A stretch of DNA of 28,848 nt, taken from IMG/VR virus record IMGVR_UViG_3300002161_000598, positions 24,784-53,631 of that record; one strand, written 5' to 3'. Each line of letters opens with the position of its first letter. Position 1 is the first letter of the stretch. A program made the position numbers and the translations under genes. The stretch comes from a virus. The notes under the pieces are model-generated. The model did no database searches. It was not told the DNA's origin and worked only from the letters and a program-made list of their open reading frames with translations. Below, one piece after another: positions 1 through 25,096 of the stretch.

Positions 1-270
1 TATCATAATTACTTATTACATAATTCTGGTCTAAAAGGAAAATACCAACCACTTGGAAATGGCGAAAAACTAAAAATGTATTTCTCTGTTGATAAATCAT
101 GTGAAGTATTCGCATATGCTCCAGGTGATTATCCTTATGAATTTGCACCACCTGTTGATTATGATACTCAATTTGAAAAAACAATACTAGATCCGATTAA
201 TCGTGTAATCACCGCAATGGGATTCAAAGGATTTAATCGAAATCTTATTTATACAACAAGTCTCTTTTAA
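1..270 (+). CDS. 43: DNA polymerase, C-terminal fragment (T4 gp43-like)
   Basis: The reading frame is open from the first base, so this is the last 89 codons of a gene cut by the window edge. The segment GEKLKMYFSVD, then a proline-rich stretch, then YDTQFEKTILDPINRVITAMGF, matches the end of the thumb domain of T4/RB69-type family B DNA polymerases, where a similar W/YDxxFxKxxxxPI pattern precedes the tail. The protein ends in TSLF; T4 gp43 ends in a related S-L-F-containing sliding-clamp peptide. It would be the replicative polymerase, working with the clamp loader encoded at 21574-22536. Catalytic residues lie outside the window. Sixteen bases separate it from the next gene. Family call from pattern memory, fairly sure because of the T4-like neighbours. 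Confidence 0.8.
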   Translation, partial: YHNYLLHNSGLKGKYQPLGNGEKLKMYFSVDKSCEVFAYAPGDYPYEFAPPVDYDTQFEKTILDPINRVITAMGFKGFNRNLIYTTSLF

Positions 271-285
271 AAAAAATAAATTATT

Positions 286-1482
286 ATGTCTAAGAAAAAA
301 GGTTTTAGAATTCACGTATTAGGTTTACCTCATACGAAAACAACAAAAGATTTTACTGCTTGTGCATACACACAAAAAGTATGGAAATTTTGTAAAATGA
401 TGGAAGGACGTGGTCATTACATCATGCACTATGGTCACGAAGATTCAAACCCTGCTGCTGATGAAAATGTTACAGTAATCACAAATGAAGTTTGGAGTAA
501 AGTGTATGGTAGTCATGATTATAAGACTCACTTATTTAAGTATGATACACAAGATGATGCGTATCAAACGTTTTATCGTAATGCAATCATTGAAATAGAA
601 AAACGAAAACAACCAGGTGATATTATTTTACCGTTTTGGGGATCAGGTGTTCGTCCTATTTGTGATGCTCATCCGGATCTTTGTATTATTGAACCGGGTA
701 TTGGTTATGCCGGTGGTATGTGGTCAGTATTTAAAATATTTGAATCTTACGCAATTTATCATGCATACTGTGGTTTAGGAAATGTTGGTATGTGTAAACA
801 AAGTTGGTATGATCAGGTTATTCCTAACTATTTTGATCTTGATGAATTTGAATATTCTGCTAAGAAAGATGATTACTTCCTTTATGTAGGTAGAGTATAT
901 GATGGTAAAGGTGTTAATATTGCAATCCAAGCAACACAAGCAATTGGGGCAAAATTAAAAATCGCAGGTCAAATTGGAGATGAGTTTTATGCAAAGACGC
1001 CTTGGCCAGATCACGTTGAATTTATTGGTTATGTAGGTTCTGAAGAAAGAAAGAATTTAATGAAAGGTGCAATCGCATCGTTTCTACCTTCAATGTATGT
1101 TGAACCATTTGGTGGAGTTCAAATTGAAAATCTTCTTTGTGGTACACCAACCATTACAACTGACTGGGGTGCATTTGCGGAAAATAATATCCACGGTATT
1201 ACAGGATATCGTTGCCGTACATTTGAAGACTTCGTAAAAGCTGCTCGTGATTGCCAAGCCGGTAAAATTAAATCTATTGATTGTAGAAGACAAGGTGAAA
1301 ACTTTTCATTAGAAGCTATCGCACCTAAATATGAAAAGTATTTTACCGAGGCATTACAAGTAAGCCAGGACAAAGGATGGTACACTATTCAAGATCCAAT
1401 GTTGTATACGACAGAGTGGTTATCTAAACAAGGATACAATTCTGACGGTACCTCTAAATTTGAGAAAAAAAAACAAAAATAG
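286..1482 (+). CDS. GT-B glycosyltransferase, GT4-like
   Basis: A 398-residue protein with the two-domain layout of family GT4 glycosyltransferases. The N-terminal Rossmann half starts at FRIHVLGLPHT. The C-terminal half starts at YFLYVGRVYDGKGVNIAIQA (about residues 200-218) and carries the nucleotide-sugar signature EPFGGVQIENLLCGTP, with the EX7E pair at E273 and E281. It should move a sugar from an activated donor to an unknown acceptor: phage DNA, a virion protein or a host surface glycan are all possible. It sits directly after the DNA polymerase gene. T4 also carries DNA glucosyltransferases, but no sequence likeness to T4 alpha-gt is apparent. The C-terminus is lysine-rich (FEKKKQK) and is encoded by a 9-A run from which a -1 shift leads into the next glycosyltransferase frame. 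Confidence 0.85.
   Translation: MSKKKGFRIHVLGLPHTKTTKDFTACAYTQKVWKFCKMMEGRGHYIMHYGHEDSNPAADENVTVITNEVWSKVYGSHDYKTHLFKYDTQDDAYQTFYRNAIIEIEKRKQPGDIILPFWGSGVRPICDAHPDLCIIEPGIGYAGGMWSVFKIFESYAIYHAYCGLGNVGMCKQSWYDQVIPNYFDLDEFEYSAKKDDYFLYVGRVYDGKGVNIAIQATQAIGAKLKIAGQIGDEFYAKTPWPDHVEFIGYVGSEERKNLMKGAIASFLPSMYVEPFGGVQIENLLCGTPTITTDWGAFAENNIHGITGYRCRTFEDFVKAARDCQAGKIKSIDCRRQGENFSLEAIAPKYEKYFTEALQVSQDKGWYTIQDPMLYTTEWLSKQGYNSDGTSKFEKKKQK
1465..1473 (+). other. A9 homopolymer, candidate -1 slippery site
   Basis: Nine consecutive A bases cover three in-frame AAA codons just before the stop (1480-1482) of the first glycosyltransferase. The last seven bases read A AAA AAA in the zero frame, a heptamer that allows both tRNAs to re-pair after a -1 slip. 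The -1 frame is open from 1464 and runs without a stop to 2363, encoding the second glycosyltransferase. A homopolymer sequencing error is the main alternative. Confidence 0.5.
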
Positions 1483-2363
1483 CGACATGGAATGAGCCCG
1501 GATGGGCAATTGGTAGAATTCATACTGGTCTAGGTAAATCATTATCTGACCAGTATGAATTTACTCATTATAATTGGTCTGATGCCAATGACAACCAAAA
1601 GCTATGGAATAATGGAGGTTGGAAAGACTTCGATATTATATTAGGTAACGGAACTTTATCAGGTTTAGAAAACTTACCTAAAGAAGCATACGAAAAAATG
1701 ATATGCGCATTATGGTCAATACCTAACTTAAGTAATCATTTTAAAGAAATCATTAATCCTATTGAAGGAATTACTTGGGTATCTGCGGGTGAAGATGTTA
1801 GTAAATATCTTAAGACAAATTACAACATCGATTCAAATCAAATAATCGCAGGAATTGATCCTACTTTATTTTATCCTACTAGAAAAATTACAAACATTAA
1901 GAGATTAGGAATCAACGGTGCTCCCTTTATTAATGATGAATGGGATAAGGTAAAAAGACCGCAAATGTTAGTTGACATCGCTAAAGGTATAAATGGTACT
2001 CCAACATTTATTCATGGTAAATCTTTAAACGATGGTGGTAAAATGTATAATGACATTGATATGTATATTTGTACTAGTACAAATGATCGTGGACCTTATG
2101 GAATAGCCGAAGCTGCTTTTTGTAAAATTCCGGTACTATCAACGAAAACTGGATTTGCATTAAAGTTTAAAAGTATAAAAACTTTTGATACTGTTGAAGA
2201 AGCTGTAAAAATCATAAATGAATTTAATAAAAATCCAGAAAAACTCAATTCCTATATAGAAGAAGTTTATAAAGAATTGACGGAAAACCTAAGCTGGGAT
2301 GCAGTTAATCAAAACTATTGGATCCCTGTATTTGAATACCATAAATCATTAAACAAAAGATAA
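1473..2363 (+). CDS. Second glycosyltransferase, no canonical start; likely frameshift product or AUA start
   Basis: The frame is open from 1464 to 2363, but the first in-frame ATG (1698) lies about 70 codons inside the conserved sequence. Before it the frame already encodes a typical glycosyltransferase beginning: KIATWNEPGWAIGRIHTGLG is the first Rossmann strand and loop. The C-terminal half contains FIHGKS and DRGPYGIAEAAFCKIPVL, resembling the donor-binding motif of GT-B enzymes with Asp in place of the first Glu of EX7E. Two readings fit: a -1 frameshift on the A9 run, giving a fusion of about 692 residues with the upstream enzyme, or coupled initiation at AUA (1479-1481), which overlaps the upstream TAG as ATAG. 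Starting at 1698 would remove the first half of the N-terminal domain. Coordinates given are those read after the slip. Enzyme class is likely; acceptor unknown. Confidence 0.65.
   Translation, partial: TKIATWNEPGWAIGRIHTGLGKSLSDQYEFTHYNWSDANDNQKLWNNGGWKDFDIILGNGTLSGLENLPKEAYEKMICALWSIPNLSNHFKEIINPIEGITWVSAGEDVSKYLKTNYNIDSNQIIAGIDPTLFYPTRKITNIKRLGINGAPFINDEWDKVKRPQMLVDIAKGINGTPTFIHGKSLNDGGKMYNDIDMYICTSTNDRGPYGIAEAAFCKIPVLSTKTGFALKFKSIKTFDTVEEAVKIINEFNKNPEKLNSYIEEVYKELTENLSWDAVNQNYWIPVFEYHKSLNKR
1517..1561 (+). other. Perfect 14-bp inverted repeat (hairpin) inside the second glycosyltransferase frame
   Basis: The arms aattcatactggtc (1517-1530) and gaccagtatgaatt (1548-1561) are exact reverse complements separated by a 17-base loop. 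A smaller GCCC/GGGC hairpin with a 4-base loop lies at 1496-1507. Both lie downstream of the A9 run and upstream of ATG 1698. There is no T-run after the stem, so it is not an intrinsic terminator. Confidence 0.7.
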
Positions 2364-2388: not shown

Positions 2389-3591
2389 ATGAGTAAAGCA
2401 TTTTCATTCGACGATCTTAATAAAGAAATGGCGAAACACTCAACGTATGGCGATACGTTGGATAAATCAACTATATCTGAAATTGATCACTTCATCCCAA
2501 CTGGTAATTACAATCTTAATGCGTGCTTAACTGGATCCCTTTTTGGAGGCTATCCTAATAACCGCGCAGTTGCTATTGCTGGGCCATCTGGAACTGGTAA
2601 AACATTCCTACTTCTTAATGGAATTAAACGTGCACAGGATTTAGGATATAGCATTGTATTCTATGATTCTGAAAACGCAGTAGATCGTGACCTTATTGAA
2701 AAATTTGGAATTGATCCAACTAGATTCCGTTATGAACCATGTAATACGGTACAAGAATTCCGTAGTTCGGTAACTGCATTAACTGACCTTCTTATTGAAC
2801 AGAAGAATAAAGGAGTTGAATTACCTAAGATCCTTATCGCATTGGATTCTGCCGGTAACCTTGCAACACAAAAAGAAATTGATGATGCAAAGAGTGGATC
2901 TGATAAAGCAGATATGACTCGTGCTAAACTTCTTAAATCTGCGTTTCGTATCTTAATGACTAAATTAGGTATCTGTAAGATTCCTTTCTTATTTACAAAC
3001 CATACATACCAAACACAAGATCTATTTTCTCAAACTGTTTCAGGTGGTGGTACTGGTCCAGAATATGCTGCTTCAATTATCCTATTCTTAGGTAAGGCAA
3101 AATTAAAAGAAGGAACAGAACAGACAGGTATTATTGTATCTGCGAAACCTAATAAAAATCGTTTCGCTAAGCCTTCACCAATTAAATTCCACATTTCATT
3201 TAGTAAAGGTATGAATCCTTATATTGGTTTAGAAGAATACATTAGCTGGGATAACTGTGGTATTGAACGTGGCCGTTTTATTACTGAAGGTCAATATGAA
3301 AAACTAAACGAATCAGGTCAAGCTGAATGCCGCCAACATATTTACCAAAAAGACGGTAAGGATGTAACCGTATATTTTCAACCTGCGGCAACAGCCCGTA
3401 AAATGGCAGTAGCCCATTTAAATGACCTAGTTGATCTTAATGAATTATTTACACCTAAGGTTATTACCGACGATGTTCTACAAAGACTTGAGCCTATCAT
3501 TAATCAAAAATTCCGTTACGGCGCTGACGATTTAGACTTAGGTAATTTAACAGAGATCTTATCTGAAGAACATGCTGAAGAAAACGATTAA
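2389..3591 (+). CDS. uvsX: UvsX RecA-like recombinase
   Basis: A 400-residue strand-exchange ATPase, close to the length of T4 UvsX. The Walker A motif GPSGTGKT is at residues 65-72. It is followed by the Walker B-type region ILIALDSAGNLAT, then DMTRAKLLKSAFRI, the segment FLFTNHTYQTQDLFSQ and the loop VSGGGTGPEYAAS, all in the order seen in T4 UvsX (where the last reads VMGGGTGPMYSA). It forms filaments on single-stranded DNA and drives recombination-dependent replication and repair. The C-terminus is acidic (EEHAEEND), as in UvsX. The start at 2389 follows an A-rich leader with no Shine-Dalgarno. The next gene overlaps its end by 20 bases, suggesting translational coupling. The T4 order uvsX-(small gene)-41 is kept here. 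Confidence 0.95.
   Translation: MSKAFSFDDLNKEMAKHSTYGDTLDKSTISEIDHFIPTGNYNLNACLTGSLFGGYPNNRAVAIAGPSGTGKTFLLLNGIKRAQDLGYSIVFYDSENAVDRDLIEKFGIDPTRFRYEPCNTVQEFRSSVTALTDLLIEQKNKGVELPKILIALDSAGNLATQKEIDDAKSGSDKADMTRAKLLKSAFRILMTKLGICKIPFLFTNHTYQTQDLFSQTVSGGGTGPEYAASIILFLGKAKLKEGTEQTGIIVSAKPNKNRFAKPSPIKFHISFSKGMNPYIGLEEYISWDNCGIERGRFITEGQYEKLNESGQAECRQHIYQKDGKDVTVYFQPAATARKMAVAHLNDLVDLNELFTPKVITDDVLQRLEPIINQKFRYGADDLDLGNLTEILSEEHAEEND
2441..2460 (+). other. Hairpin in the early uvsX coding sequence
   Basis: caacgtat (2441-2448) and atacgttg (2453-2460) are exact reverse complements around a GGCG tetraloop. The stem begins 52 bases after the uvsX start codon. It could slow ribosomes or bind a regulator, or be chance within coding sequence. 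Confidence 0.4.
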
Positions 3592-9417: not shown

Positions 9418-11292
9418 ATGAATAATGAAATTAAAGAATCGAAACTAAATGAAGGTCAAACACAGGTTTATTCTGACGGCAGTGTTGTACCTCAATCTGG
9501 AGTAGATACTAATGCACCTTATTTAAACACCCCACCTCAACAATTACTTGATCTTACTGCACAGTTCTTTCAAGGTGGAAGATCTGAAAGCAAAGTATTG
9601 GCAATTCTGGTTGGTATGGGTATACCACAGCAATTAGCATTATCTAGTATCGCCGCTCACAGAGCCGCAATGGGAATGTATAACGAAAATCATAATAAAC
9701 AAAAAAATCATAACAAAATGAACTTTACACTTGCACAATTGTATGAAAATGTTATGAAGAGTATTGACACGCTAAAATTAATGGAATCCGATCAATCAAG
9801 GGTTTCATATTCGGCTAAGAATGCTCTCAACATTTTAGAAGAATCATTAGATATGTTCCCGCGCCAATTTTATCAATCTTTTGTCGCTGCACATAATAAT
9901 GAAAAAGGAGAATCCACTCCATTAAGTGAAAACCTTGAAGCTGGAATCAATCCTAATCTTAAATTTAAAATTGCAAAAACTTTACATAGAAATCTTGCAA
10001 TCCACGAATGGTTAGCTCCGGTTAGATCATTAATAGACTACATTGATGGTGTTTATAATAACACAAAATGGTCATTTAGAATCAGTGAAGCAATTGATAG
10101 AAACGAATCTCAAAAAGGTTCTTTATACGAAAGCTTAGTAAAAGATCTTACTGAAACTTTAGTAGAATCTGAATCTATTAAATCTAATCTTTCTAAAATT
10201 TCTACTAAGTACCCTTGGTCAAGAGATATCTTTGGTATTTTAAATGAAATGGCAATTGAAGATAAGAAAGCAGTATCAAATAACGGTGGTGTTGTAAGTT
10301 CAGTACTTTCTCCGGTTGTTGAAAATGAAAATGGATTAAACTTTTTCTTACATGGAAAAACTTATTCATTAAAAGATGGCAAAATTGCAGAATCAGTTGT
10401 TAATGATCAAAGATTCTTTAACGTATTAGAAGGATTAAAATTATTTAAGCATATTAACAATTCACTTGTTATTTTTGGTCAAAATGATAAATCATTAGAA
10501 TATAATTTAGCTGAAGGTAAATTAACTTTAGGTAAATCTGATCTTACTGAATTAAATCCTACACAGATTAAAGAATCATTACTTGCTACAAACTTCTTTG
10601 GTTACAAAAACTTCTCAAACGCTGACGTTGTTGCAAAATTCTTTGAAAGCGCAGAGTTACTTTATGAGATGGATAATTTTACAAACATCACTTCAAAAGA
10701 ATTCTTAGCATTGTATTTAACAATGATCGCTGTTGAGGAAGGTGTTTGGGTTAATAAAGTTAATACTGGTATGCAGCTGAATGAAATGACATTCATTCCT
10801 TCTGCAACAGAAGCAGTAAAAACAATTAAAGAATTTATTAATTACGATGCAACTACAATATTATCTGAGAAATTAATTTCTGAAGGTAATGAAGCTGTTA
10901 AACTTACTAAAAGAAGAAATGAAATCTCTGAAACTATTTCATTCCTTGAAGAAAAGAAAGTAAAGATATCTGAAGCAATTTCTAAAATTGGTAAGTCTGA
11001 GGAATTAGACGAAGCATTAGGTTTGATTAACGATGAAATCTCTAAGTTTGAAAAAGAACTACAAGAGACATATACTATCGTTGAAAAAAAAACTAGAAAC
11101 CAATATTTAGATCAAGGTTTTGTTGAAGCAACCATAGAAAATCCCGTATCAGGATTTAAACCGGATACAATGGTTTATGTTAATGCTGAAGAATATGCTT
11201 CTCTAGGAGATAAAGATATGTTAACCTTTATAGATCCTAAGAATGACAAAAGCTATATTGCTAAGAAACAAGATCTTAAAGTTAAGCTCTAA
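9418..11292 (+). CDS. Unknown 624-residue late protein, probably virion-associated
   Basis: I do not recognise the family. It has its own late promoter copy and is followed by an intrinsic terminator, so it is a self-contained late unit. The first 100 residues hold a hydrophobic helical stretch (AILVGMGIPQQLALSSIAAH). They are followed by an Asn/Lys-rich linker (YNENHNKQKNHNK) encoded by an A-rich stretch that looks like this phage's own gene leaders, then M101 NFTLAQLYENV. A charged coiled coil lies near residues 500-550. The C-terminus (FKPDTMVYVNAEEYASLGDK) looks like a small beta domain. Several (I/L)xE tripeptides such as LNE at 10-12 could be prohead protease sites. A head-internal or tail protein is possible. 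Confidence 0.75.
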   Translation: MNNEIKESKLNEGQTQVYSDGSVVPQSGVDTNAPYLNTPPQQLLDLTAQFFQGGRSESKVLAILVGMGIPQQLALSSIAAHRAAMGMYNENHNKQKNHNKMNFTLAQLYENVMKSIDTLKLMESDQSRVSYSAKNALNILEESLDMFPRQFYQSFVAAHNNEKGESTPLSENLEAGINPNLKFKIAKTLHRNLAIHEWLAPVRSLIDYIDGVYNNTKWSFRISEAIDRNESQKGSLYESLVKDLTETLVESESIKSNLSKISTKYPWSRDIFGILNEMAIEDKKAVSNNGGVVSSVLSPVVENENGLNFFLHGKTYSLKDGKIAESVVNDQRFFNVLEGLKLFKHINNSLVIFGQNDKSLEYNLAEGKLTLGKSDLTELNPTQIKESLLATNFFGYKNFSNADVVAKFFESAELLYEMDNFTNITSKEFLALYLTMIAVEEGVWVNKVNTGMQLNEMTFIPSATEAVKTIKEFINYDATTILSEKLISEGNEAVKLTKRRNEISETISFLEEKKVKISEAISKIGKSEELDEALGLINDEISKFEKELQETYTIVEKKTRNQYLDQGFVEATIENPVSGFKPDTMVYVNAEEYASLGDKDMLTFIDPKNDKSYIAKKQDLKVKL

Positions 11293-20218: not shown

Positions 20219-20710
20219 ATGTACAAAGTTCGTAAAATAAACTTTGGTTGGTATAAAAGGAGGCATGGTATCTTATTGGAAAACCTGCCTCCTTTAAAGC
20301 AACGATTGCTTTTAGAAAACCATTTTATGAAATGGTTAGACTCAGATCCTCAAACCTTTGAAATAGTTTTTAAAATAGAGGACATGCATGAACATGAAAA
20401 GAATCCAAATAAAATCCTATGGAATCCTTTTAGAGAAACCTTTACTACAATTAAAGAAGTTGAGGCTGACTCAAATTTAGTAGATTGGACTTGCGCAATT
20501 TGCCCGTCAGAAATCAAAACTAGAATGGATTCTAAAAAGGTTGAAAATTTTGTTTGTAAGAAATGTTCAGAAGCTCATAACTCACGGAATAAAAGAGTTG
20601 ATCAAAGAATAATAGATTCGTCCATACGGTTTACTAAGCACTGTAAATCTCTGTTAAAAGGTGAACAAAGAGAGTTTTTAACCCATATCCGTAGATCATC
20701 TAAGGGATAG
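20219..20710 (+). CDS. Unknown protein with CxxC pair (zinc-ribbon-like)
   Basis: A 163-residue protein I do not recognise. Two cysteine pairs, CAIC and CKKC, about 22 residues apart near residues 97-122, would suit a zinc ribbon; other cysteine- or lysine-rich contexts (HNSRNKRVDQR) suggest nucleic-acid contact. The N-terminal half is basic and aromatic (KINFGWYKRRHG). It starts 7 bases after the previous gene and may share its late transcript. Its 3' end overlaps by 15 bases the 3' end of the only minus-strand gene. A strong hairpin lies early in its coding sequence (20256-20295). Confidence 0.7.
   Translation: MYKVRKINFGWYKRRHGILLENLPPLKQRLLLENHFMKWLDSDPQTFEIVFKIEDMHEHEKNPNKILWNPFRETFTTIKEVEADSNLVDWTCAICPSEIKTRMDSKKVENFVCKKCSEAHNSRNKRVDQRIIDSSIRFTKHCKSLLKGEQREFLTHIRRSSKG
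20256..20295 (+). other. 10-bp perfect hairpin with buried AGGAGG
   Basis: aaaggaggca (20256-20265) pairs exactly with tgcctccttt (20286-20295), extended by ggt/acc after a one-base bulge. The left arm holds the only AGGAGG I noticed as a Shine-Dalgarno-like string in the window, one base before an out-of-frame ATG that opens a 10-codon ORF. Confidence 0.55.
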
Positions 20711-21499
20711 CGCCTGTTCAAAACTAATCTTAGGCCAAACCTTTAGGGAACTTGTCATTGAAGCATTATAAACTTCCACTTTCTTTTGTTTTAAAAGATC
20801 TGCTAGTATTTGGAAGCCTGGTATAAATTGATCTCTATAGATATTATCTCCTGTTACTGGAACCGGATAGCCGTCATGATAATGACCTTTTTTACCATCA
20901 TTATGCATATCATATCCTAATAGGACTATTCTTTTGGCTCCCAATAGATAAGCTAAGTTTATTGCAGCATATCCGCTGTTATTACCATGACACAGCGCAT
21001 CTTTAGATTCTTCTAAACCAAACTTATTGCTTTTTCTTAAAACCTTAACATCTGCAGGATATGTCACATGATGTCTAATGGTGTATTTCGGTCCTTTGAA
21101 TTTGTCGATGTCTTGTTTATACCAACTATAAACTCTTGAATCGGTCCAATACATAACATCAGCCGATGGATATGATAGAATTGATTTGTTTATAGCAATT
21201 GTTCTTTTCCCAGCAAGACTATTCCAATTAAAGTTAGCCAATGAAGGACCACCGCCAATTACATAAACTGTTTCACCAGCCCATATAGGTTCAACCCTAG
21301 ATATTGTTTTATTGTCATGTCTTTGTAAATTTACATTAACATTTCGTCTGTGTACTGTTGGGATGTTTTCAGGAGCAACATTAATTTTACTTACCTTACT
21401 TGAATCATGACCTTTTTTGATAATAGTAACATCATTTGTTCTTTCCTTAATAATAGGGATTAATCTTTCGTTACCGAGTATCTTTCGTATTCTCCTCAT
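20696..21499 (-). CDS. GT42/DUF115-like sugar or nucleotide transferase, minus strand
   Basis: A 267-residue protein and the only convincing minus-strand gene. After a basic, probably disordered N-terminus of about 65 residues come VYVIGGGPSLANF (GGGPSL at 82-87), a nucleotide-binding loop; a middle TIAINKSI...DVMYWTDSRVYSWY; and SGYAAINLAYLLGAKRIVLLGYDMH. This arrangement occurs in GT42 sialyltransferases (GNGPSL...SGVxxxxxAxxLGYKEIYLxGxDxY) and in DUF115/MptE-like proteins. It could transfer a sugar from a CMP- or similar donor, but the substrate is unknown. It runs against every neighbour, overlaps the upstream plus-strand gene tail-to-tail, and starts 75 bases from the divergent clamp-loader gene. 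It looks like an acquired accessory gene. Confidence 0.75.
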   Translation of the reverse strand: MRRIRKILGNERLIPIIKERTNDVTIIKKGHDSSKVSKINVAPENIPTVHRRNVNVNLQRHDNKTISRVEPIWAGETVYVIGGGPSLANFNWNSLAGKRTIAINKSILSYPSADVMYWTDSRVYSWYKQDIDKFKGPKYTIRHHVTYPADVKVLRKSNKFGLEESKDALCHGNNSGYAAINLAYLLGAKRIVLLGYDMHNDGKKGHYHDGYPVPVTGDNIYRDQFIPGFQILADLLKQKKVEVYNASMTSSLKVWPKISFEQALSLR

Positions 21500-24444: not shown

Positions 24445-25096
24445 CACTTTTGAATTTGGGATTCCAACACATATTAGTTTTACTCTCTACAAGTTTGATT
24501 ACATAGATAGTATCATAATTTCTAGAGTCTTAAAGGAATGTAAGAATTGGAATACCACTAATGAAAACATATACACAGTTAAGGCAGAGTCTTTTAAATC
24601 TGCAATCATTGGTAGTAAAAGATTAAGGACCGAAATTCAAAAAACCGAAGTTCATGGCCTTTCTCCTACACCAGGACTTAAACCAAATTCCATTTCTTTC
24701 TTATGGGCTATTTTGGAAAGATTACCAAATTTAGATTGGTTGACGTTTGATATTTCGTATGATAAAAAATTCACAAGATTAATTAAGATTGAAAATAGGG
24801 AGGTTCAGAGTTTCTATTTTAGAATAGACGAAGGTATTTTTGATCTTACGAGAGTATTTGACAGGGAATCATTGGATACTATTAATCGTAAGATGATCCA
24901 GTTTGGTGTTATGCCAAATAAGTACCTTGAACGTCTGCCTTATTTTTATATGAAAGCTTCTCTTCTGTTTGAAGCATTAGGACAACTTGAAATGGAGGAG
25001 TCCTTAAATACATTTGAATTACTTGATCAAATAGATCCTAAACTCGAGGAAGACGATCCAATACTTTTAGTCATAACAGATTATACACCATACTAA
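24428..25096 (+). CDS. Unknown 222-residue protein
   Basis: I do not recognise this protein. It begins MMLIDNTFEFGIP (two adjacent ATG codons, 24428 and 24431) inside the end of the previous gene, so translation is likely coupled to it. It is mixed alpha/beta with many aromatic residues (PNLDWLTFDISYDKKF, RLPYFYMKASLLF), a short acidic region near the end and no signal peptide, membrane segment or catalytic motif. It closes the second replication block; the next gene has its own late promoter. A replication or regulatory role is a guess from position. Confidence 0.65.
   Translation: MMLIDNTFEFGIPTHISFTLYKFDYIDSIIISRVLKECKNWNTTNENIYTVKAESFKSAIIGSKRLRTEIQKTEVHGLSPTPGLKPNSISFLWAILERLPNLDWLTFDISYDKKFTRLIKIENREVQSFYFRIDEGIFDLTRVFDRESLDTINRKMIQFGVMPNKYLERLPYFYMKASLLFEALGQLEMEESLNTFELLDQIDPKLEEDDPILLVITDYTPY

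Follow-up and report, generated by a model that had tools for sequence, protein, structure and literature searches.

A probable conserved -1 recoding site between two glycosyltransferase genes of T4-like phages

Introduction

Most of what is known about recoding in phages comes from the tail-assembly chaperones. Here, we describe what is very probably a familiar mode of gene expression at a gene where it was not expected: a candidate site of programmed -1 recoding between two enzymes of the GT-B glycosyltransferase fold, on a stretch of 28,848 nucleotides (nt) of viral DNA (positions 24,784 to 53,631 of the IMG/VR record IMGVR_UViG_3300002161_000598; this whole stretch is called the window). 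The open reading frame (ORF) of the second enzyme, ORF2, has no start codon and opens in the -1 frame at a run of nine adenines (A9) close to the end of the first, ORF1; the enzymes are referred to as GT1 and GT2. Two kinds of described systems come closest to this junction. Runs of 8 or more A/T have been linked to slippage by RNA polymerase (PMC3711429), and runs of 9A are described as slipping efficiently, with homologous insertion sequence (IS) elements carrying 8A or 9A (PMC5009743, PMC1088944). In ribosomal frameshifting, a conserved direction is given as a distinguishing mark, whereas the orthologues of a transcriptional-realignment case "do not necessarily" keep the direction (PMC3711429, with the former point in its section 10).

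The junction resembles the 9A transcriptional realignment of Thermus thermophilus dnaX and of IS elements in that it comprises 8-10 A, with a length that varies among relatives, and in that two ORFs are joined only via slippage, as these sources describe it for their own systems (PMC1088944, PMC5009743). It differs in that two complete glycosyltransferases of T4-like phages appear to be involved, in that the offset is always -1 and in that the slip is here read from the frames. With the -1 ribosomal frameshifting on A_AAA_AAN sites, also represented by dnaX and IS elements, it shares an in-phase heptamer, a nearby stop codon and a fixed direction; unlike those sites, it has longer runs, no A_AAA_AAG and no shared hairpin at 5-9 nt or shared Shine-Dalgarno-like motif. 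On the evidence below, we assign a probability of about 0.86 to conserved programmed -1 recoding at this junction, by which both GT1 alone and a GT1-GT2 fusion would be produced. A literature search, at the level of titles and the first parts of abstracts, returned no earlier description of a frameshifted phage glycosyltransferase pair.

Results

The features of the junction in the window are the following.

286..1482, + strand: ORF1 (GT1), a 398-residue predicted GT-B glycosyltransferase, the unfused product
1465..1473, + strand: the A9 run, candidate slip site, with A_AAA_AAA inside it and in phase
1480..1482, + strand: zero-frame TAG stop codon, two sense codons past the A9 run
1464..2363, + strand: ORF2 (GT2), the open -1 frame, with its stop codon at 2361-2363; a predicted GT-B glycosyltransferase without a start codon
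286..2363, + strand: putative 692-residue GT1-GT2 fusion, deduced from the frames and their conservation

ORF1 ends GAG AAA AAA AAA CAA AAA TAG; the open -1 frame runs from 1464 to 2363 (299 sense codons), as the initial annotation of this DNA, made from the sequence without database searches, had reported. Also in line with that annotation, no start codon lies near the first strand of the second enzyme (predicted here as TKIATW): ATG, GTG and TTG are all absent from the first 30 codons of the ORF2 frame in the window, and the earliest ATG-type start, at 1698, is already within the enzyme. Counted from the coordinates, a -1 slip would give 396 + 296 = 692 residues, the fusion length anticipated earlier beside an unfused form of 398 residues, and an mRNA with one extra A would encode an identical protein of 692 residues. 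Long A runs are few in the coding sequences of the window's own 53.6-kb contig. The coding strand of its ORFs with an ATG start and a length of 90 residues or more (54 ORFs, 49,560 bases) contains two A9 and one A8, the run at the junction counted in; the spelling AAAAAAAAA is used for one of the ten KKK tripeptides in these ORFs, the one at the junction, yet AAA makes up 971 of the 1409 lysine codons.

The initial annotation had named related phages as a place to look for the same arrangement, and it is present on 21 other contigs, with 13 further distinct junctions; together with the window, this makes 22 contigs and 14 distinct junctions. The relatives were drawn from scans of viral contigs and carry the row labels L001, L010 and so on; two junctions were counted as distinct if they differed anywhere from 10 nt upstream to 40 nt downstream of the run. 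Of 84 ORF1 loci the best 80 were kept, and the junction sequences of 24 were examined; 16 of the others are contigs already counted, and 40, at no more than 43% identity, were considered by the length and end of ORF1 only. L118 and L133 stop short of the junction. Over the 14 distinct junctions the run is A9 in eleven, A10 in two (L026, L054) and A8 in one (L010), and it begins at codon position 1 in nine, position 2 in two (L013, L028) and position 3 in three (L026, L054, L119). In all 14, nevertheless, ORF2 lies in the -1 frame, so that the direction is conserved, and a zero-frame stop follows after 0-5 sense codons, counted from the last codon into which the run extends. The opening of the ORF2 frame lies within the run or at most 1 nt ahead of it in six of them (the window, L001, L010, L028, L050, L051), and a crossing from ORF1 to ORF2 is therefore possible only in the run. 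No ATG, GTG or TTG occurs in the first 30 codons from the opening of the ORF2 frame in 12 of the 14, the exceptions being L028, with one GTG, and L054, with two ATGs inside the conserved domain. The spacer from the run to the first strand varies in length from row to row, is always open in the -1 frame and ends in KPK or KPR (six rows), TK or TR (six), IR (one) or PLK (one), while the ORF2 proteins of the 13 other distinct frameshift rows are 31-88% identical to that of the window. It seems safe to state, from these sequences, that the run and its -1 offset persist through insertions and deletions, in three phases and at several places of the ORF1 tree. The arrangement thus does not look like chance, and with the candidate slip site recurring in distant relatives it appears to be a deliberate means of gene expression and not a product of sequencing error.

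Both halves are predicted to be complete enzymes. ORF1 matches PF00534 (E 1e-18) and phrog_3408 (E 1e-162), and the best Foldseek match to its AlphaFold model (predicted local distance difference test, pLDDT, 82.8) is the GT-B structure 8x3q (E 1.4e-20). The model of ORF2, built on an alignment of 16 rows, has a pLDDT of 91.9 and a predicted template-modelling (TM) score of 0.88, and its first predicted strand comprises residues 4-9. By sequence, ORF2 shows a weak PF00534 match under the family cut-off in Pfam (E 5.7e-5), no match in NCBIfam and nothing meaningful in the PDB; Foldseek, by contrast, aligns the model with solved GT-B enzymes that include GlgM, PimA and BshA (best E 7.6e-10). Superposition over both domains is loose for either ORF, with query TM-scores of about 0.42-0.75 among the 50 matches listed for each, and both models contain the two Rossmann-like domains expected of a GT-B, GT4-like enzyme. 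The models therefore predict a complete GT-B fold for ORF2, in keeping with the earlier proposal that the -1 frame encodes a full glycosyltransferase. A tblastn search of a cultured-phage collection with three ORF2 queries gave no relative of ORF2, and none was present among the 51 pattern matches of a bacterial genome scan.

The frameshift arrangement alternates with one in which the second gene has an ordinary start. Seven distinct relatives, which come from nine contigs (L046-L048, L049, L137, L139, L140, L141, L142), carry an ATG at the corresponding position; these belong to another subfamily of ORF2. In the 90 nt 5' of that ATG, the longest A run is 4-5 in six of the seven; L139 has an A9, but a TAA lies in the ORF2 frame between the run and the ATG. 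In the tree of ORF2, 13 of the 14 frameshift rows fall on one side of a fully supported branch. The tree of ORF1 (from which L137 and L063 were left out, and in which L119 is represented by half its length) requires five changes of the frameshift label, at least three of them forced by well-supported branches, with L050 and L051 basal to the ATG group and L054 next to L053 (support 94/92). Thus, the frameshift state was gained or lost more than once, or parts were exchanged. Other partners are also found at the C-terminal end of ORF1: in L053 and L063 a methyltransferase domain, identified with Pfam, is fused to it in frame, the ORF1 of L055, L057 and L058 has the same length and ending as these, and L059 and L060, close to L057, end before the C-terminal extension. 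The C-terminal end of GT1 thus repeatedly receives a partner domain. In L045, GT1 stands alone, and the gene immediately after it has a beginning like that of the window's UvsX gene.

A strong hairpin lies further downstream in the window:

1512..1566, + strand: RNA hairpin of 55 nt, beginning 38 nt after the run, inside the coding sequence of ORF2

Hairpins of this type occur in 7 of the 14 rows (the window, L001, L002, L003, L005, L011 and L026), all in the window's subclade. They are more stable than dinucleotide shuffles and, in each of the seven rows, none of 300 synonymous recodings was as stable (z -3.9 to -6.7). The pairing holds in 89.3% of cells across the seven rows, falling to 35-49% when slid. 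Covariation over these rows (two pairs changed on both sides) was matched by 134 of 500 shuffles, and the argument for the hairpin is therefore confined to its stability relative to synonymous recodings. In the comparison with synonymous recodings, the stretch tested began at +23 in L028, +16 in L119 and +3 to +5 elsewhere. In L010, L013, L050, L051 and L119, no structure clearly exceeds the synonymous recodings in stability (72, 184, 18, 276 and 244 of 300, respectively, being as stable), and the hairpin was rejected as a general stimulator; L028 and L054 have stems elsewhere, each matched in stability by 1 of 300 recodings. Being confined to the window's subclade, the hairpin is not needed for the slip in general.

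The genes around the pair, and others relevant to its possible role, are as follows.

1..270, + strand: last part of the DNA polymerase gene, immediately upstream (the 371-residue ORF that ends there matches phrog_1918, E 5.6e-65)
2389..3591, + strand: UvsX-like recombinase, directly downstream (phrog_97, E 5.2e-64)
L126:12480-19785 and L127:791-2050: sugar-nucleotide cluster, on the window's contig, upstream of the window
L125:1465-2346 and L123:1330-2238: thymidylate-synthase-family protein, with TDIA/TDVA, that is, Asp at the nucleotide-specificity position, in the two translations

The cluster encodes a PF02719 dehydratase, a hexapeptide acetyltransferase with a PglD_N match, a DegT aminotransferase and a family-2 glycosyltransferase, as well as a weakly matched NTP-transferase and a C5 cytosine methylase. 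A divergent thymidylate-synthase-family protein was found in three of the ten records searched, and no such gene is present on the window's own partial contig. It adjoins thymidylate-kinase-like and guanylate-kinase-like genes (gene families were searched for L125 only). Thymidylate synthases have Asn at the position occupied here by Asp, and the protein that the libraries call a thymidylate synthase is possibly a deoxycytidine monophosphate hydroxymethylase. As a separate observation, the longest minus-strand ORF listed for the window (20696-21499, - strand; 267 residues) matches the MptE-like family PF01973 just over the cut-off.

Discussion

The frames of the two genes, their conserved offset and the alternation with an ATG-started arrangement would be accounted for as follows. 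Most transcripts or ribosomes would yield only GT1, of 398 residues, ended by the stop codon just past the A run. A fraction would slip within the A9, giving the 692-residue GT1-GT2 fusion, either because RNA polymerase adds one A, so that the mRNA carries an A10, or because the ribosome re-pairs to the -1 frame on A_AAA_AAA. The fusion would be the sole way in which GT2 is made, and the proportion of GT1 to GT1-GT2 might be kept fixed to serve a sugar transfer in two steps. We infer the slip in the cell, the slip rate and the kept ratio; the -1 slip that the initial annotation had put forward is, in any event, well supported by the comparison of relatives.

Several observations weigh against this explanation. 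The genome has a second A9, at 11084-11092, inside an ORF of 624 residues (9418-11292) without a Pfam or PHROG match at E 0.001; a -1 slip would there read AAA AAA AAC TAG and end the protein at once, so that an A9 by itself does not imply recoding. All of the contigs are metagenomic and the case is known from sequence alone. Moreover, the 14 junctions share descent and are for that reason not independent; the well-supported branches of the ORF2 tree force just one change of label, and a single origin of the frameshift state may be compatible with that tree, in which L054 falls among the ATG rows, on a long branch and with an unsure placement. The ATG-started relatives show that enzymes of the GT2 type can be made unfused, and in L028 translation of GT2 could begin at an in-frame GTG located at the first strand. 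Relatives with an ordinary start codon had been named at the outset as a finding that would speak against a slip; they do exist, but in a different subfamily of ORF2 (the seven distinct ATG-started relatives), and perhaps also closer to the window, in L028.

The initial annotation had offered, as an alternative, separate translation of GT2 by re-initiation at a non-standard codon, the AUA of an ATAG overlap, after termination of GT1. ATA does overlap the TAG in the window and is the first-strand codon in 8 of the 14 distinct junctions, and the ATG-started relatives have their start at the matching place. In the other six, however, this codon is GTA (L026, L051), GTT (L050), GTG (L028), CTA (L119) or ATT (L054); only the GTG of L028 is a usual start codon, and L028 may start GT2 in this second way. 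Furthermore, ATA is an ordinary isoleucine codon in the window (57 of 378 in ten genes), and initiation at AUA would leave the A run, and the frame open across it, without a reason to be retained. Re-initiation also finds no help in Shine-Dalgarno-like sequences: none of the 25 window ORFs chosen for inspection has a four-letter match 4-18 nt before its ATG, which suggests a Bacteroidota-type host. With the codon unconserved, AUA initiation is rejected as a shared mechanism, and re-initiation at a non-standard codon appears to us very unlikely as an account of the junction.

Slipped-strand phase variation, in which the DNA run would alternate from phage to phage between A9 (off) and A10 (fused), deserves attention, since poly-A tracts mutate readily and bacteria are well known for phase-variable glycosyltransferases. 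Phase variation at poly-A is among the phenomena described in PMC3711429. None of the 22 contigs, however, has the in-frame version (these being consensus sequences, in which rare variants would not show); the six contigs that are identical around the junction (L005-L009, L014) all have A9, and the two A10 rows are in another phase, so that their offset is again -1. We regard such switching as highly improbable. Homopolymers are also prone to sequencing and assembly errors, and the second gene might simply be broken. Yet an error would have to produce the identical offset on 22 contigs with differing flanks and in three phases, and a broken gene would hardly have stayed open, kept 31-88% identity across the other distinct frameshift rows and retained a confidently predicted fold. 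The same lack of an in-frame run that speaks against phase variation led us to reject assembly error, and of all explanations error or decay is the one that we find hardest to believe.

If the junction is a recoding site, as we think, slippage by RNA polymerase is slightly favoured over ribosomal slippage on the sequence features, and both may operate. The earlier description of A_AAA_AAA as a classical slippery heptamer was right, since every one of the 14 distinct junctions has an in-phase heptamer (A_AAA_AAA or A_AAA_AAC) in the ORF overlap, with the downstream frame at -1; it left RNA-polymerase slippage unconsidered, and the runs, of A8 to A10 in all 14, exceed the seven bases that a ribosomal site needs. 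Their three codon phases and the lack of A_AAA_AAG in any of the 14 also favour the polymerase. Ribosomal frameshifting would lead one to expect a stimulatory structure about 5-9 nt downstream or an upstream Shine-Dalgarno sequence, and neither is shared. The first 60 nt after the run are no better folded than shuffles in 13 of the 14 rows (z 0.7 to -1.4), the exception being L028 (z -3.65, with a stem from +16), and short stems start near +5 to +11 in L026, L010, L119, L001 and L054; no common Shine-Dalgarno-like motif precedes the run. On the other side, 7 of the 14 rows do carry a four-letter Shine-Dalgarno-like match in the 25 nt preceding the run, at varying distances, L010 has only an A8, as A_AAA_AAC, and the direction is -1 in 14 of 14, where transcriptional realignment would allow both. 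Stimulators, moreover, are not obligatory in every case, judging from a proven IS example of frameshifting on A_AAA_AAC that is described without an established one (PMC4066793).

The hairpin at 38 nt is too distant for a classical stimulator. Its distance corresponds to about one ribosome footprint downstream of the run. Possibly, in the window's subclade, a slipped ribosome stalls at the hairpin and the next one, queued behind it, is held on the A run and slips more, although we consider this unlikely. If true, the output of GT1-GT2 would depend on ribosome density.

The position of the pair is reminiscent of other T4-like phages. The region between the DNA polymerase gene and uvsX is described as plastic, with a sugar module between these genes in RB69 and the T4 beta-glucosyltransferase between the hydroxymethylase gene and uvsX (PMC6024577). 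The window likewise has sugar-transfer genes between DNA polymerase and uvsX, but both of its enzymes match general GT-B folds and are known here from their genes alone. Homologues of ORF1 are also found among the phrog_3408 glycosyltransferases of the cyanophages S-CAM7 and ACG-2014f (about 62% identity over 91%). Unlike ORF1, these are not followed by a relative of ORF2, as judged by tblastn in the phage collection: in S-CAM7 the next gene is hypothetical and the one after it encodes a 2OG-Fe(II) oxygenase, and in the ACG-2014f records an oxygenase (PiuC) adjoins the phrog_3408 gene. Position and neighbours suggest that GT1 and GT2 may act in glycosylation of the phage DNA or of the virion. 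DNA glucosylation of the T4 type involves hydroxymethylated cytosine, to which the sugar is transferred on the DNA, and the possible hydroxymethylase in three of the ten records searched would bear on this.

For annotation, the arrangement means that gene finders that depend on a start codon would truncate the second enzyme or miss it. The natural series of A8, A9 and A10 runs, together with the ATG-started relatives and the methyltransferase fusions, makes the question of polymerase versus ribosome testable. For the phages themselves, recoding in this part of the genome, between polymerase and uvsX, would, if true, fix how much of a single sugar-transfer enzyme is made relative to a fusion of two.

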